In this document: in pieces, positions 50,676 to 56,848 of the stretch
How the letters are laid out: every line of letters starts with the position of its first letter
Numbering within the stretch: the first letter of the stretch is position 1
DNA from: Haloferax litoreum
Lineage (GTDB): Archaea > Halobacteriota > Halobacteria > Halobacteriales > Haloferacaceae
Assembly (NCBI RefSeq): GCF_009674605.1
Contig: NZ_WKJO01000001.1
Coordinates: 1,240,001-1,304,000 of the forward strand
Direction: 5' to 3'
Length of the DNA stretch: 64,000 nucleotides
Program-made: the position numbers and the translations under genes
The notes under the pieces: model-generated
Databases searched by the model: none
What the model saw: only the letters and a program-made list of their open reading frames with translations
Told to the model about the DNA's origin: nothing

Positions 50676-50888
50676 GCTCTCACGTCGCTCCCGGCGGCCA
50701 AATAAGCAGGGGGAAACGAGACAGGGGGTGTCGTTCCGTTGCCCCAGTCGCCGGCACTGGTCGCGATTAGATTCTTCGCGACCGAGAACACGCTGTTCGA
50801 GATGGTCGGTTCGGCAGAATGCCGCCTTCGAGATAGTGTCGTGATATCATTCCAATAGTTATGTGTAATTCGTCGAACGGTGAAAAAA

Positions 50889-50896
50889 GATTAACA
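50889..50896 (+). promoter_or_regulatory. TATA-like box of the tubulin-like operon
   Basis: AGATTAAC within GAAAAAAGATTAACATTTT, about 31-38 bases before the ATG at 50927. The 250-base gap 50676-50926 has no other feature I can recognise. Confidence 0.5.
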
Positions 50897-50926
50897 TTTT
50901 GACACGACCATCGTGTGACCGACACA

Positions 50927-53900
50927 ATGAACGTTCCCGATAGAATCTTCGCAGTTGGGGGTGCAGGGAAACAACTCGCGTTCGAGTTGCTCGAGACCCA
51001 GTGGGTTCTCGAAGCGATATTGAAACCCCGAGGAACACCACTCGAGACGAAGGTCACGATTATCGATAGTGCGGAAGGAGAGGCGACGGGTGGCGACCAA
51101 GGTGGTGATTGGGAACGAGTCGACGACATCAAACGTCGCATCCGTCGTATCCAAGAAAGGTACCGAGACCAGGATGACCGGCACAGACCCGGTCGAATCG
51201 ACGTCGATTACAAACTCCTCACCGAGAACGTTCGACTCAACCGCCAACTCGACATGGTTGGCGACGCCGAAGTCGAGCGAATCACCGCCGGAAACGGCAT
51301 GGAACGCGACGACTGGTGGTTACGACCCTCTCACATCAACGAGAATCTGGACTTCGCCAAAGGCGTCATCCGAAAACGAGGCTTGAGCAAGGCGCTTTAT
51401 TACAAAGCCTACGCCGAAGACGACATCGAGGCAGTCGTCGACCTGCCCGAGAAGGGTGAAGTCGCGATGCTGGTCGGACTGGGTGGTGGGACGGGTGCCG
51501 GACTCCTCTTGGACCTCGTCGAACATCTGAAGCGGGAGCAATCGACCGCCGAAGTCACACTCTTCGGTGTCCTCCCCAACAACGCCGAGGGGGAAAAGGA
51601 GAACGCCAACGCCTTCGCGATGCTCTCGGAACTCGAGTACCTCTCGCTGTCGGGGGCCGACCTGTTCGAAGACCAAATTCTCTTCTCCATCGAACCGACG
51701 TCCTACGGCGGAAAGGCCGACCAGATGAGTCCGAGTGTGGACTACCTCAAGGAGTTCGACGAGGCGTTCGTCTACTCGCTCCTCTTGTACTACAACCGCC
51801 AGTACTACCTCGAAGAGTCGTTCACGTCGTCGCCGTACGCCCCGTTCACGGTGGCAGTCCCACACCTCGTTCGGTACAACACCGAGGCGATAGAGGAGTT
51901 CCGCGCGACTGTCGGCGACTACCTCGACCAGAAGTCGGAGTCGATGAGCGCCGAGAAGCGACTCTACGACGAAGTCAGTTCGTTCCTCGACACTCACTAC
52001 CCCGAGTCGTCGGGCGAACTCAGTGACGAAGACGAGGTCGATTTGGAGCGTCGTATCGCCCAGTTGGAGACGCTGATTTCGCTCGAACTCTTCGAGGACC
52101 TCGATTACGAGGTGACCTCCGTGTTCCGGACGGAGGTTCTCGACTCGGCACGGGCCGAACTGAACGCCGACGAGCGTGAAGAGGGCCACGCGCTGGACAC
52201 GATGATAGACATCATGGTCGGGTCCGTCGAGGCCGGCGCACTCGAAAATGCGGATTCGAGTTCCGAGGAAGTCCTCGTCGCCGACGTGCTTCGAGAGGAC
52301 GTCGTCCTCCTCGGCCGCAGGAAGCAGATTCTCAAACGTCTCAAAGGCGTCTCCGACCCGAAGGTTCGGGATGCGCTGGAGTACCTCGTGGGTCTCCGCG
52401 AAGGGAACGCAGGTGCCAAATCGACGCAACTGAGCGGTGAACACCAACGCGCACAGACGGCCCGAAAACAAGCAGAGTCGGAACTCCACGAGACGCGCGA
52501 GGAGTTAGACGAACTCCGAACCGAGCAATCCGAGCAAGTTGCACGGAAGACCGACGAGTGGGTCGCGGCAGTCAAAGAGCAGTTCGAACAACTGGACGCG
52601 CTCGAATCGAGACCCCTGCGACGGGATATCGAGACGCTCCGGTCGAGTCTTCAGGACTTCCGCAGACGCGTCGAGCGTGCGCGCTCACCGGACGAAGTCG
52701 AGGCTATCGACCTGACCGAAATCAACGAGGCACTCGCCGACGTCGAAGACGACCTGCAAGCGGCCGACGTGTACCTCGACGCGTCCGACGTGGCCGACTC
52801 CGTGGAGATGGCGAAGAAGGCGCGAATCGCCCACTACGGCATGTACGCGGACCAGGGAGTCTCGAAGTACCTCCCGTGGGAGTCCCAGCGCGCCAAACAG
52901 CGAAAGAGCGACGAAAAGCAGTTCAGTGCACAGCGGGCACAACTCCGGAACAAGAGTCTCCCGGTCTTCGAAGTCACCGACGACGGCGGCGAGTTCACCT
53001 GTACGGTCCGATTCGACGGGCAGCAACTCCTCGACCAGGTCGAAGAGCGCCGAGAGACGCTTCGCTCGGAGATTCTCTCGACGTTCGATGAGACCGTTCC
53101 GTCCCCGCGTCCGAGTGAGCGCGACCATCTCACCGACCACGTCGAGAACGGGAGCAGTCTCGAAGAGATTCGCGCAGTCGTCGAAGAGGCACTCGAACGC
53201 GAACTCGCCGACACTGGCAAACTCGAATCGCGCGTCGAGGGCATGGAGGCGACGGTAGACGAACGGCGTGCAATCGAAGAACTGTACGCCGACGCGCAGA
53301 ACGCCGTCACCGAGTTGAACACGCACACGGAGTCGTTCACGCGCAACCTCGACGCCTACCAGCGAGGTATCAAGTCGCTCGACGAGACGAACCCACAGCA
53401 GACGGCCGTCGAAGAAGAGTACACCTTCCGCAAGCACATCCAGCCACACAACATCTTCCTCGCGACGGGTAACAGCGGACTCGCCGAGAGCGACGTGCTC
53501 GACAACCGCAAGGAGAAACAGCAGTTGGCCGGCCACGTCGACGAACTCGCCGACAAAGCGCGCTCGACTCAGTACTGCGGGTTGCGCAAGCGGAAGTTGA
53601 TAGCGGACCAGCGCCGGTACGACGGCATCGACGTTCACGTGGGTCTCGCCTCCGAGGCGTCACTCCACGGTATCGTCGACCTGCAATCACCGTTCCAGAA
53701 CGCGTTCGAACTCGACAACTCCCAGTACGGCCAGTGGGAGTGCGACTTCGGCGGGGCGTGGGAGATTGGGATGACGTCGTTCATCACGGGCGTCTTCCTC
53801 GACAACCTTCGACTCATGGTCGGCCCGGAAGGGTACGCCGAGAAGTACTACGAGTACGAGTCGAAACTGGGCGGCGACATCCTGATTCACCACGCGTACG

Positions 53901-54178
53901 GACTCGAAGACGGGAACTTCGTCCGTCGAAAGGCGATGTTCAACGTCGAGTACACCGACGACGTGCGGACGTTCCTGCAGAGTGACCCAGAGGTGACGGC
54001 TACGCTCCTCGATTCGTTCGAGCGAGTGCTGATAACCGACCCGTCGGCGGCGGACGAACAGTTCGACGGCGACATCGAGGTACAAACGACGACGCTCACC
54101 GACGGCGACAGTACCACGGCGAACGCGACTGGCGTCCCAGACGAAATCGTATCGCTCGAAGACGATGGAGACGATTGA
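50927..54178 (+). CDS. Large divergent tubulin/FtsZ-superfamily protein with coiled-coil region (gene 1 of 3)
   Basis: 1083 residues from the ATG at 50927; a GTG at 50915 is an alternative. The N-terminal third is a tubulin/FtsZ-type GTPase domain: FAVGGAGKQLAFELLE (glycine loop, about 11-16), the signature GLGGGTGAGLLLDLV (G-G-G-T-G-A-G, about 185-192), and VLPNNAEGEKENANAFAMLSELEYL (about 216-238), which fits the FtsZ helix-7 region with the base-contact Asn. A long coiled coil (about 500-590) and a roughly 450-residue C-terminal part of unknown fold follow. The protein is far larger than FtsZ or CetZ (about 360-400) and looks like the Tubulin_2-type families. It overlaps the next gene by 14 bases and is probably the cytoskeletal or filament partner of the two membrane proteins behind it. 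Confidence 0.8.
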   Translation: MNVPDRIFAVGGAGKQLAFELLETQWVLEAILKPRGTPLETKVTIIDSAEGEATGGDQGGDWERVDDIKRRIRRIQERYRDQDDRHRPGRIDVDYKLLTENVRLNRQLDMVGDAEVERITAGNGMERDDWWLRPSHINENLDFAKGVIRKRGLSKALYYKAYAEDDIEAVVDLPEKGEVAMLVGLGGGTGAGLLLDLVEHLKREQSTAEVTLFGVLPNNAEGEKENANAFAMLSELEYLSLSGADLFEDQILFSIEPTSYGGKADQMSPSVDYLKEFDEAFVYSLLLYYNRQYYLEESFTSSPYAPFTVAVPHLVRYNTEAIEEFRATVGDYLDQKSESMSAEKRLYDEVSSFLDTHYPESSGELSDEDEVDLERRIAQLETLISLELFEDLDYEVTSVFRTEVLDSARAELNADEREEGHALDTMIDIMVGSVEAGALENADSSSEEVLVADVLREDVVLLGRRKQILKRLKGVSDPKVRDALEYLVGLREGNAGAKSTQLSGEHQRAQTARKQAESELHETREELDELRTEQSEQVARKTDEWVAAVKEQFEQLDALESRPLRRDIETLRSSLQDFRRRVERARSPDEVEAIDLTEINEALADVEDDLQAADVYLDASDVADSVEMAKKARIAHYGMYADQGVSKYLPWESQRAKQRKSDEKQFSAQRAQLRNKSLPVFEVTDDGGEFTCTVRFDGQQLLDQVEERRETLRSEILSTFDETVPSPRPSERDHLTDHVENGSSLEEIRAVVEEALERELADTGKLESRVEGMEATVDERRAIEELYADAQNAVTELNTHTESFTRNLDAYQRGIKSLDETNPQQTAVEEEYTFRKHIQPHNIFLATGNSGLAESDVLDNRKEKQQLAGHVDELADKARSTQYCGLRKRKLIADQRRYDGIDVHVGLASEASLHGIVDLQSPFQNAFELDNSQYGQWECDFGGAWEIGMTSFITGVFLDNLRLMVGPEGYAEKYYEYESKLGGDILIHHAYGLEDGNFVRRKAMFNVEYTDDVRTFLQSDPEVTATLLDSFERVLITDPSAADEQFDGDIEVQTTTLTDGDSTTANATGVPDEIVSLEDDGDD

Positions 54179-55727
54179 GACGCGGACGCCCGACGCGCGT
54201 TCGACGCCACTCCGGGAGCGACTCGGTGCGTTCACCGACAACCACGAGATGATTTCGGTGGTCGCGTACTTCCTCGTCGTGGTCGGTACGTCGGCCATGC
54301 TGGCACCGATGCTCGGCCTCGCGTGGGAGTCCAGAGGGCTCACGTACCTCCTGGTGTTGGTCCCAGTCGAACTCGGGTTCGTCAGTCTGGCGTCGTTCAC
54401 CGTCTTGCTCCTCGGCGTCTGGTGGGGACTCGTCGTGCTGTTACTGCTGTTCGACACGAAAAAGCGCCTCCAGGGATTGTTCCTCGTCGTCGGAACGCTC
54501 ACCGCACTCTTCGGACTGTGTCAGTTCGGCCTCGTGTGCGGGAATCTGAACCTCCTGAGCAACCTCGAATGGTTGGGGGCCGGACTACTGGTCGGCGTCC
54601 TCCTCGGCGGTCTGCGGGACATGCCCGGTCTGCTCGAAGGCAGGAAGACCGAGTTCCGCGACGCTGCCCAGTGGGTGTTCTATCTGGGGTCGCTCCTCGT
54701 CGTCGCCGGATTTCTCGAAGCACACGTCCAGTACCCACTGCCGATGATTGAGTCGTCGTCGGTCGACAGCGGGGTCGGACTCGCCGACCCCGCCGGTCGA
54801 AACCTCCTCGTGGACGCGGCCCTCTCCGGCGTCTTCGTCGTCACACTCGGTCGGTTCATCGAGTACGACGCCGAGACGAACTTCTTCGTCCTCGGCCCGT
54901 CTCAGTCCGGGAAATCGCTGTTGATGCTCGGTGCGTACTATCAGGCGACGGAAGGCGTCACCAACGAGATGGACCCCGTCCCGAACAGCGAACTGTACCA
55001 CCTCCTCGGTGAAGTAGACGACAAACTGATGCGCATGTCGGGGTCGGGCAACAGTTGGTGGCCCATCCCCGGAAACGACCTGGACGAATCGGCGCGCCTC
55101 GGATTCGAGTTCGTCCACGGAACTGCGTTTCCGAAGAACGTCGAGGTGCAGACCGTCGATTACGCTGGAGAGTGGCTTTCACTCGTCCCCGACATCATCA
55201 CGATGGACGACGCGCAGTTGCGCGAGTACGTCGACGCCGAGGGGTTCAACGTCGACGCGATGGAGGACATCAAACACGGTGTCGCCGCGGCGGACGTGTT
55301 GGTCCTCACCCTCGACGTCGAGAAACACGTCACGGGCCAGTCACTCGACATCGGAACGTACCACGAAATCGTCGAAAAGACCGCGGGGAAGACAGTCCTC
55401 CTCGTGGCGACGAAGTGTGACCTCCTCGTCGAACCGTTCGAACAGGAGACTGGTCTCGACCCATACACCGCCTTCGACGACTTCAGCGAGTACGTCGAAC
55501 GGACGCTCACCCGCCGCGAACAGGTCCGTTCTCTCGTCGACAGAGCGGCCGGGTCGACGGTGTACCCGGTGTGGTTCGAGACCCGACCGGCGTCGTACGA
55601 GGCCGACGGCGACGGTGTCGACGGAGATGAAGAGCGAATCCATCGCGTTCCGTCGCTGACTGCGGACGGACACATGGTTCCGGTCGGGTTCGACCGCCTG
55701 TTGGATTACTTCGGCCGAGGACGATGA
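54165..55727 (+). CDS. Polytopic membrane protein with P-loop GTPase domain (gene 2 of 3)
   Basis: 520 residues. Six hydrophobic segments (about 32-234) are followed by a soluble domain with Walker A GPSQSGKS (244-251), a G3-like DYAGEW (332-337) and G4-like ATKCD (415-419), where TKCD stands for N/TKxD. This makes it a GTPase of the TRAFAC/Ras-like type attached to the membrane, in the style of SR-beta or the double-GTPase proteins of recently described NTP-dependent conflict systems. Overlap with the tubulin-like gene is 14 bases and with gene 3 is 4 bases (ATGA), so all three are translated together. It may anchor or trigger the tubulin-like polymer at the membrane. Function inferred. Confidence 0.75.
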   Translation: METIETRTPDARSTPLRERLGAFTDNHEMISVVAYFLVVVGTSAMLAPMLGLAWESRGLTYLLVLVPVELGFVSLASFTVLLLGVWWGLVVLLLLFDTKKRLQGLFLVVGTLTALFGLCQFGLVCGNLNLLSNLEWLGAGLLVGVLLGGLRDMPGLLEGRKTEFRDAAQWVFYLGSLLVVAGFLEAHVQYPLPMIESSSVDSGVGLADPAGRNLLVDAALSGVFVVTLGRFIEYDAETNFFVLGPSQSGKSLLMLGAYYQATEGVTNEMDPVPNSELYHLLGEVDDKLMRMSGSGNSWWPIPGNDLDESARLGFEFVHGTAFPKNVEVQTVDYAGEWLSLVPDIITMDDAQLREYVDAEGFNVDAMEDIKHGVAAADVLVLTLDVEKHVTGQSLDIGTYHEIVEKTAGKTVLLVATKCDLLVEPFEQETGLDPYTAFDDFSEYVERTLTRREQVRSLVDRAAGSTVYPVWFETRPASYEADGDGVDGDEERIHRVPSLTADGHMVPVGFDRLLDYFGRGR

Positions 55728-56848
55728 CCGACCTCGAGATATTCGACCGCTTCGGCAACCCGGTGACGGGCGACGGCCCAACTGAGGACCGATACGAACG
55801 GTTCGACCGCAAAGAAGTCCTCCTGTACGTCGAGACGACGGGGGCGAATCCCACACTCGTCTGCGCGTTTCGGGCCCACGACCGGCCCGGCGGGCGGTCG
55901 AATCGATTCTACGCGACGTTCAGCGGCGACGACGTCGATTCGCTGTTCGTCGCGTGTCGGCAGGCAATCGAAGAACAGGCGGACGAACTCGGGTGGCGAC
56001 TCGACACCACGTCCGACAACGACCGGGTCCACACCTTTCTCGCCCTCTCGGAGGTGTCCTCCGACGACGTCGCACTCGGCGACCAGGGCGAGTACGTCTC
56101 GCACTTGCTCCGGACCGGAAGGCACGCCGATTTCGAGACCCGAGACGTTCGGACTGGTCTCGCGGTGGTGAAACAGATTCTGCAAGACGAACGCCTCCGT
56201 GGGTCGTTCGCGGTCGGGAACAACGGCCGCGTCCCCGAGACGGACGATGCACTCGTCGTCGTCACTCCCGGTGCGACCGGCGCGAGTCCACTCCGACCAG
56301 TCGGCGCGACCGAATCGGCACTCGAATCGGCCCGAGAAGAGTGGGAAGAACGACTGGCCGACGACCGTCTCGCGGAGATGACCGAGACGGTGACAGAGAG
56401 CGTCAGCGAACTCACACAGCGGACGTCGTTGAGCGACGACGACCTTCGGGACAGACTCGTTCGCGAGGTAACCCGAGCGTTCGAACGAACAAACGTCGGC
56501 GTGCAGGCGATTCGAACTGACAGACTCGAAGAACTCGAACGCGAACGAGACGACTTTCGACACGAGTTGTCCCGAGCGAACTCCCTCGACACCGCCGCGC
56601 GCTCCGGGTCGCACTCGACCCGCGCCCGCGCCGCCCTTGTGGTCGTCCTGTTGCTGTTAGCCTTCGCCGCCGGTGCGATTCTCACGTCGGCACTCGGTAC
56701 CGTTCCACTCGTCGACGAACTCGTCACCGCCGGCAGTAGTCTCCTCCCCACGGACCGACTCTCTGCCAGTCTCTTCGCCGGACCCTCGTTGCTCACATTT
56801 GCGACCCGAAAGACCACGCTGTCGCTAGTCGCGACGGAGTCGCTGTAG
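55724..56848 (+). CDS. Coiled-coil protein with C-terminal membrane anchor (gene 3 of 3)
   Basis: 374 residues. A globular N-terminal domain of unknown fold (about 1-195; FVACRQAIEEQADELG, VSHLLRTGRHADFETRDVRTGLAVVKQIL) is followed by a charged helical region (about 198-288, ESAREEWEERLADD...ELERERDDFRHELSR) that suggests coiled coil, then one clear membrane helix (about 303-322, AALVVVLLLLAFAAGAILTS). A second hydrophobic C-terminal stretch may also be in the membrane. It overlaps gene 2 by 4 bases. Its 3' end overlaps the convergent gene 56825-57538 by 24 bases. No family recognised; role inferred from context as a membrane adaptor for the tubulin-like system. Confidence 0.7.
   Translation: MTDLEIFDRFGNPVTGDGPTEDRYERFDRKEVLLYVETTGANPTLVCAFRAHDRPGGRSNRFYATFSGDDVDSLFVACRQAIEEQADELGWRLDTTSDNDRVHTFLALSEVSSDDVALGDQGEYVSHLLRTGRHADFETRDVRTGLAVVKQILQDERLRGSFAVGNNGRVPETDDALVVVTPGATGASPLRPVGATESALESAREEWEERLADDRLAEMTETVTESVSELTQRTSLSDDDLRDRLVREVTRAFERTNVGVQAIRTDRLEELERERDDFRHELSRANSLDTAARSGSHSTRARAALVVVLLLLAFAAGAILTSALGTVPLVDELVTAGSSLLPTDRLSASLFAGPSLLTFATRKTTLSLVATESL

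Follow-up and report, generated by a model that had tools for sequence, protein, structure and literature searches.

FtsZl1 proteins (PF13809, Tubulin_2; in public records 'tubulin-like domain-containing protein') are among the most diverged branches of the tubulins. The family was founded on a haloarchaeal protein in which an FtsZ-like GTP-binding N-terminus with a GGGTG(S/T)G-type loop is joined to a long coiled coil over ~1050-1080 aa, and was linked to adjoining diverged P-loop GTPases that are membrane-associated in archaea, with a vWA or protein kinase gene as a frequent but not required neighbour (Makarova and Koonin 2010, PMC2875224). T6-H7 and the C-terminal tubulin domain were not identifiable in that study, leaving filament formation in question, and a 2023 study of the superfamily excluded Tubulin_2 proteins as lacking FtsZ_C and Tubulin_C (PMC9871819). 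The second point of comparison is the DO-GTPase/GAP1-N2 conflict systems, which bring together TRAFAC GTPases, membrane helices, coiled-coil tubulin, vWA and HSP70, and in which a conserved glutamate after DxxG is the published hallmark of the DO-GTPases (Kaur et al. 2020, PMC7159879). Here we analyse a three-gene locus in a 64,000-nucleotide stretch of Haloferax litoreum (positions 1,240,001-1,304,000 of the 2.98-Mb contig NZ_WKJO01000001.1; hereafter the window), which encodes a tubulin-like protein (gene 1), a membrane GTPase (gene 2) and a membrane anchor (gene 3).

The window system belongs to the type predicted in 2010. Gene 1 shares the layout of Huta_2051, with a T4-loop N-terminal domain that scores over the profile cut-off, a central coiled coil and an adjacent membrane P-loop GTPase. 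The initial annotation had left open whether this exact combination was new; since the arrangement was already outlined as the FtsZl1 system (PMC2875224), the combination itself is not. What we add is a split-tubulin reading of gene 1, the existence of arm-less pseudo-tubulins and of pseudo-GTPase pairs among its relatives, and a comparison with empty sites in other Haloferax. We find that the FtsZl1/Tubulin_2 protein, its membrane GTPase and its membrane anchor form one unit, which is conserved together and gained or lost as a unit, and we give about an even chance to the idea that the haloarchaeal cassette is an accessory envelope system in which the membrane GTPase controls a tubulin scaffold.

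A predicted split tubulin fold in gene 1

The three overlapping reading frames of the initial annotation were reproduced together with their overlaps of 14 and 4 bases (Table 1). For gene 1 the ATG at 50927 is likely the better start, because its relatives begin MN[LV]P and because an upstream block that is nearly identical in Haloferax profundi extends up to this codon; residue numbers below nevertheless follow the 1087-aa form, and those of the ATG form are lower by 4. Gene 1 scores 31.8 bits against PF13809 (Pfam curated cut-off 27), and all 33 aligned relatives match both Tubulin_2 and Tubulin. Within this alignment the GGGTGAG motif at residues 190-196 has invariant glycines (G190-G192, G194 and G196), which together with the Pfam matches rules out a chance motif, so that both the assignment to the tubulin superfamily and the reading of GGGTGAG as a genuine GTP loop are borne out. 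Also invariant or nearly so are the T1 glycines, D51, the T4 pattern GGG-T/S-G-A/S-G, the F-GVLP strand end, NANA-AALSELE and the helices that follow.

Aligned against haloarchaeal FtsZ and CetZ by HHalign, the gene 1 profile is significant over S4-S6 only (96% probability). Because this alignment places the EGEKENANAF helix directly after strand S5, we assign it to H5, and not to FtsZ helix 7 as first annotated; H7 would lie at ~273-293, both labels being our own. The best sequence match of the profile in the PDB is TubZ (4xcq, E 1.4e-5), likewise in the T4-H5 stretch, although TubZ/RepX has neither an arm nor membrane partners. At the T7 position an acidic ED is found in the close clade only and not in divergent relatives.

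An AlphaFold model of gene 1 was built from the 33-row alignment (mean pLDDT 82.8, pTM 0.59) and compared with known structures by VIA-align. It matches CetZ2 with a Z of 22.1 at 3.9 Å over 321 of 334 residues, drawn from model residues 7-987, FtsZ with a Z of ~20 over 289/299 residues, ending at model residue 960, and tubulins with a Z of ~20 over ~357/432 residues, ending at ~1023. This many positions cannot all come from residues 7-322, so the matches must draw on residues beyond the long helical arm that follows S7, a region of many helices besides the two listed in Table 1 and one in which the predicted coiled coil was recovered. Past the arm the model shows strand 906-913, helix 924-931, strands 938-943 and 950-960 and helix 974-992, an order that we assign to S8-H10-S9-S10-H11. 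The tubulin fold of gene 1 thus appears from the model to be complete, with an insertion of ~550-580 helical and coiled-coil residues following S7. Gene 1 would then resemble CetZ, FtsZ and tubulin in the predicted fold of both halves as well as in its GTP-site motifs, and differ from them in being split by a long helical arm, in having no identifiable T7 NxDFAD loop and in being similar in sequence only in T4-H5.

Independent support for the split fold comes from two Halorubrum paralogues of 563-565 aa (L125:5156-6847 and L126:5998-7695), in which residues 1 to ~333 and ~870-1010 are joined by a short linker; the arm (~residues 335-870) is absent and both tubulin halves are kept. Because their T4 loop is degenerate (GGATSG), these arm-less proteins may be unable to bind GTP, and no gene 2 relative was found beside either of them.

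Table 1. Features of the three-gene cassette (window positions)
Feature	Position	Strand	Basis and remarks
Inserted cassette, approximate extent	50714..56834		Empty-site comparison with 13 other Haloferax
Gene 1, FtsZl1/Tubulin_2 family tubulin-like protein	50927..54178	+	1083 aa (GTG start at 50915 gives 1087 aa); PF13809, AlphaFold, CetZ2 match
First half of tubulin fold, residues to ~322: T1 GGAGK, D51, T4 GGGTGAG, S5-H5 (GVLP...NANAF), H7, S7	50927..51880	+	33-relative alignment; model strands and helices
Helical/coiled-coil arm between S7 and S8, ~residues 323-900	51881..53614	+	Model helices 499-565 and 768-824; boundaries approximate
Predicted second half of tubulin fold (S8-H10-S9-S10-H11), ~residues 901-1045	53615..54049	+	Model elements; VIA ranges reaching 960 (FtsZ), 987 (CetZ), 1023 (tubulin)
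Gene 2, membrane TRAFAC GTPase	54165..55727	+	520 aa; 22-row alignment, Foldseek/VIA matches
Six predicted transmembrane helices of gene 2, residues 27-233	54243..54863	+	Model and hydropathy
P-loop GPSQSGKS of gene 2	54894..54917	+	G244, P245, G249, K250 invariant
Gene 3, conserved N-terminal domain, coiled coil and one transmembrane helix	55724..56848	+	374 aa; 16-row alignment; C-terminal ectodomain apparently truncated
Transmembrane segment of gene 3, residues 298-330	56615..56713	+	Hydropathy

Since sequence profiles alone give it no support, the second half stays a structural prediction that draws on AlphaFold, VIA-align and the arm-less paralogues: the tubulin C-terminal domain, which went undetected in 2010 (PMC2875224), is covered by the structural alignment and not by the profile alignment. 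If true, a split but complete tubulin fold would give the question of FtsZl1 filaments a concrete structural answer.

Two other origins or roles for gene 1 were considered and rejected. No phage record matches it, and its viral structural matches are ordinary PhuZ/FtsZ-like ones where the head is concerned, the arm matching SMC/SbcC-like coiled coils, which speaks against a virus origin. Nor is gene 1 this genome's division FtsZ, because seven other genes of the FtsZ/CetZ type are present and division is unlikely to need it.

The membrane GTPase and the membrane anchor

Gene 2 was annotated as a six-helix membrane protein with a P-loop GTPase, and this description holds. The model places helices at residues 27-55, 75-96, 98-120, 134-149, 165-187 and 214-233 and the GTPase domain after them, and across 22 relatives the motifs GPSQSGKS, DYAGEW and ATKCD are conserved, D332, G335, E336, K417 and D419 being invariant along with the P-loop residues of Table 1. 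No Pfam family reaches its cut-off for gene 2 of the window, but its structural matches (Foldseek/VIA; Z 12.5-13.8) are to TRAFAC GTPases, namely eEFSec, EF-Tu, YcjX, Era, Rab and Rac. The hallmark glutamate of the DO-GTPases in the Walker B region is also present in its DYAGE motif, with D332 and E336 invariant, and gene 2 thus shares with the systems of Kaur et al. (PMC7159879) a TRAFAC GTPase with a glutamate after DxxG, membrane helices and a coiled-coil tubulin. Membership of the DO-GTPase/GAP1 group is nonetheless rejected, and a direct tie to those published systems is not supported. No Pfam DO-GTPase match passes the cut-off in the 13 genomes searched; the DO-GTPase1/2 profiles give a best E of 0.0014 among the 22 gene 2 relatives and none for the window protein, and the weak DO-GTPase2 matches are unspecific because a nearby EngB-like GTPase scores equally well. 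Similarly, GAP1-N2 (PF20013) exceeds its cut-off in none of 21 genomes, with Corynebacterium glutamicum as a positive control and GAP1-M and GAP1-C not searched separately. The window also differs from those systems in having a single GTPase.

Among divergent haloarchaeal relatives the resemblance extends to two GTPase paralogues, HSP70 and vWA. At nine such loci (L059, L060, L061, L075, L077, L079, L080, L081 and L082) the gene directly after gene 1 is related to gene 2 but has none of the P-loop, DxxGE and TKxD motifs, and in 7/9 a second paralogue with an intact P-loop lies close by; for the other two, the second copy is degenerate at L079 and was not found at L075. These active/inactive pairs recall the paired DO-GTPases, and no description of a pairing between P-loop-less and intact GTPases was found in the literature searched.

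For gene 3 no Pfam match was obtained in the window, and its description as a coiled-coil membrane anchor agrees with a single hydropathic segment. The family (16-row alignment) combines a conserved N-terminal domain (F49, R50, A51, R58, Y63 and others) with a coiled coil and a single transmembrane helix, and longer relatives carry β-sandwich ectodomains (CarboxypepD_reg, SdrD_B and PEGA-like). The window protein ends ~45 residues past its membrane segment, whereas its Halogranum amylolyticum relative runs on into a long ectodomain. Because of this longer copy, and because the last codons (ACG GAG TCG CTG TAG) match the empty-site DNA of other Haloferax, gene 3 was probably clipped at the 3' insertion junction, H. 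profundi sharing the truncated form. At the same junction gene 3 overlaps tail to tail with the 5-FTHF cyclo-ligase gene at their 3' ends (56825-56848), the stop codon of the latter apparently being supplied by the inserted DNA.

Conservation and distribution of the three-gene unit

Of 39 haloarchaeal gene 1 loci searched by tblastn, 35 have a gene 2 relative as the next gene downstream, on the same strand, and 22 have a gene 3 relative in third place, the order always being gene 1-gene 2-gene 3. The three genes therefore do travel together, as had been proposed, and neither of the outcomes named beforehand as refuting the initial annotation (gene 1 outside the tubulin superfamily, or genes that do not co-occur) came up. 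Moreover, the pairwise distances measured for gene 1 correlate with those for gene 2 across 13 core loci (Spearman 0.81), a value matched by 0/2000 label permutations.

The system is patchy, being found in 37/292 genomes of the class and in 2/15 of the genus Haloferax, with further copies on Methanohalobium and Halorubrum plasmids and in a Geoglobus metagenome-assembled genome. In all 13 other Haloferax the DUF389 and 5-FTHF cyclo-ligase genes are adjacent, ~60-100 bp apart with nothing between them, so that the window and H. profundi, which have the three genes at this point, carry a clean ~6.1-kb cassette. H. profundi is also the nearest named relative of the cassette (97% in gene 1). Outside the genus the nearest copy is that of Halogranum at 60%, while Haloarcula-type and Halorubrum copies are about equally distant (36-41% identity to both), which suggests horizontal spread. 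Compared with H. profundi, dN/dS is 0.08 for gene 1, 0.16 for gene 2 and 0.36 for gene 3, and dS is 0.15-0.19 for the three genes, similar to 0.22 for a flanking gene. From these ratios the genes are real, selected and maintained, and they were present before the window species and H. profundi split. The cassette is flanked by NOG1, SIMPL, DUF389, 5-FTHF cyclo-ligase, GNAT, HTH_10 and EngB-like GTPase genes; unlike many of the published FtsZl1 operons (PMC2875224) it has no vWA or protein kinase gene beside it, the vWA genes of this genome lying far off. With its natural empty sites it offers a complete, minimal three-gene version of the system in a genus with good genetics.

Possible function

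In the accessory envelope system that we propose, gene 1 would bind GTP and form its assemblies on the cytoplasmic side of the membrane, hydrolysis by the usual T7 loop probably being absent, and the six-helix GTPase would be the switch that recruits or releases it. Gene 3, with its N-terminus in and C-terminus out, would tether the complex to the membrane; in most relatives it would also link it to an extracellular β-sandwich sensor or adhesive domain. On this view the cassette would serve neither division nor housekeeping; it would be an accessory module of the envelope, spread horizontally, by which an event at the envelope leads to the assembly of a tubulin scaffold. A broader version, which we hold only tentatively and would rate below an even bet, is that FtsZl1 proteins in general are split tubulins with an SMC-like arm between S7 and S8, whose assembly in haloarchaea is under the control of a membrane TRAFAC GTPase (one lineage using an active copy together with a P-loop-less pseudo-GTPase copy) and coupled to the ectodomain anchor, the whole forming a mobile envelope-sensing module.

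Several points weigh against this proposal. In HHalign the second tubulin half obtains a probability of 0.1, which is no higher than that of control regions, so that sequence gives it no support, and a conserved T7 catalytic acid is not identifiable in the gene 1 alignment. Without the ectodomain seen in its relatives, the window copy of gene 3 may leave this cassette with no sensing step. The orientation of gene 3 is deduced solely from its charge and from its having no N-terminal signal segment. No experimental study of FtsZl1 was found in the literature searched, with subscription papers and preprints largely outside the search.

Membrane remodelling, cell shape and defence, the roles suggested in the initial annotation, are treated here as no more than possibilities. 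Membrane remodelling or vesicle formation, in which the membrane GTPase drives an FtsZl1 polymer to deform the cytoplasmic membrane, was predicted from the wider gene context (PMC2875224). That both partners of gene 1 are membrane proteins agrees with this possibility; however, it was reached from context only, a reviewer of the same paper favoured transport or signalling, and a patchy pattern of gain and loss would be odd for a basic process, so that we consider it rather unlikely.

A conflict module, in which the GTPase switch senses infection and tubulin assembly then disables the cell or contains the virus, as in the GTPase/tubulin/HSP70 systems of Kaur et al. (PMC7159879), finds support in the patchy spread of the cassette, in its occurrence on plasmids and in the empty sites of 13/13 relatives. 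Moreover, extra HSP70 genes, with vWA genes, lie within ~10 kb of gene 1 in three genomes of divergent relatives, as in the GAP1-N2 theme. Yet no DO-GTPase or GAP1-N2 match exceeded its cut-off in the genomes searched, neither HSP70 nor vWA is found near the window cassette, and PADLOC gave no convincing match for the three proteins, whereby a known defence family is rejected. In 86 neighbours of relatives PADLOC marked no more than scattered defence genes, a count without a background rate. We therefore hold this second alternative to be doubtful as well.

It is improbable that the Haloferax cassette is decaying, its insertion having clipped gene 3 so that the system no longer functions: gene 3 does end in flank-derived codons and has the highest dN/dS, but it is still open in both species, and purifying selection on genes 1 and 2 has been strong ever since the two species diverged. 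Plasmid or DNA segregation of the TubZ type, suggested by the best PDB profile match and by the plasmid-borne copies, is very improbable given that the partners of gene 1 are membrane proteins, that the cassette has no gene for a DNA-binding adaptor, and that the window copy and many relatives sit on chromosomes or large contigs.

Some further observations concern the surroundings of the relatives. A search for kinase motifs among their neighbours found none, a Pfam kinase-like domain appearing below cut-off at least at one locus (L064). PQQ/β-propeller proteins are encoded repeatedly in the vicinity of haloarchaeal copies (L070, L075 and other loci) and are missing from the window. At L076 (G057:C53) gene 2 and gene 3 relatives adjoin with no recognisable gene 1 within a 19-kb stretch, and on plasmid p117 of Halorubrum sp. 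BOL3-1 (L143) a tubulin-like gene and two downstream genes lie near an Hsp70-family gene, a vWA gene and an ISH3 transposase.

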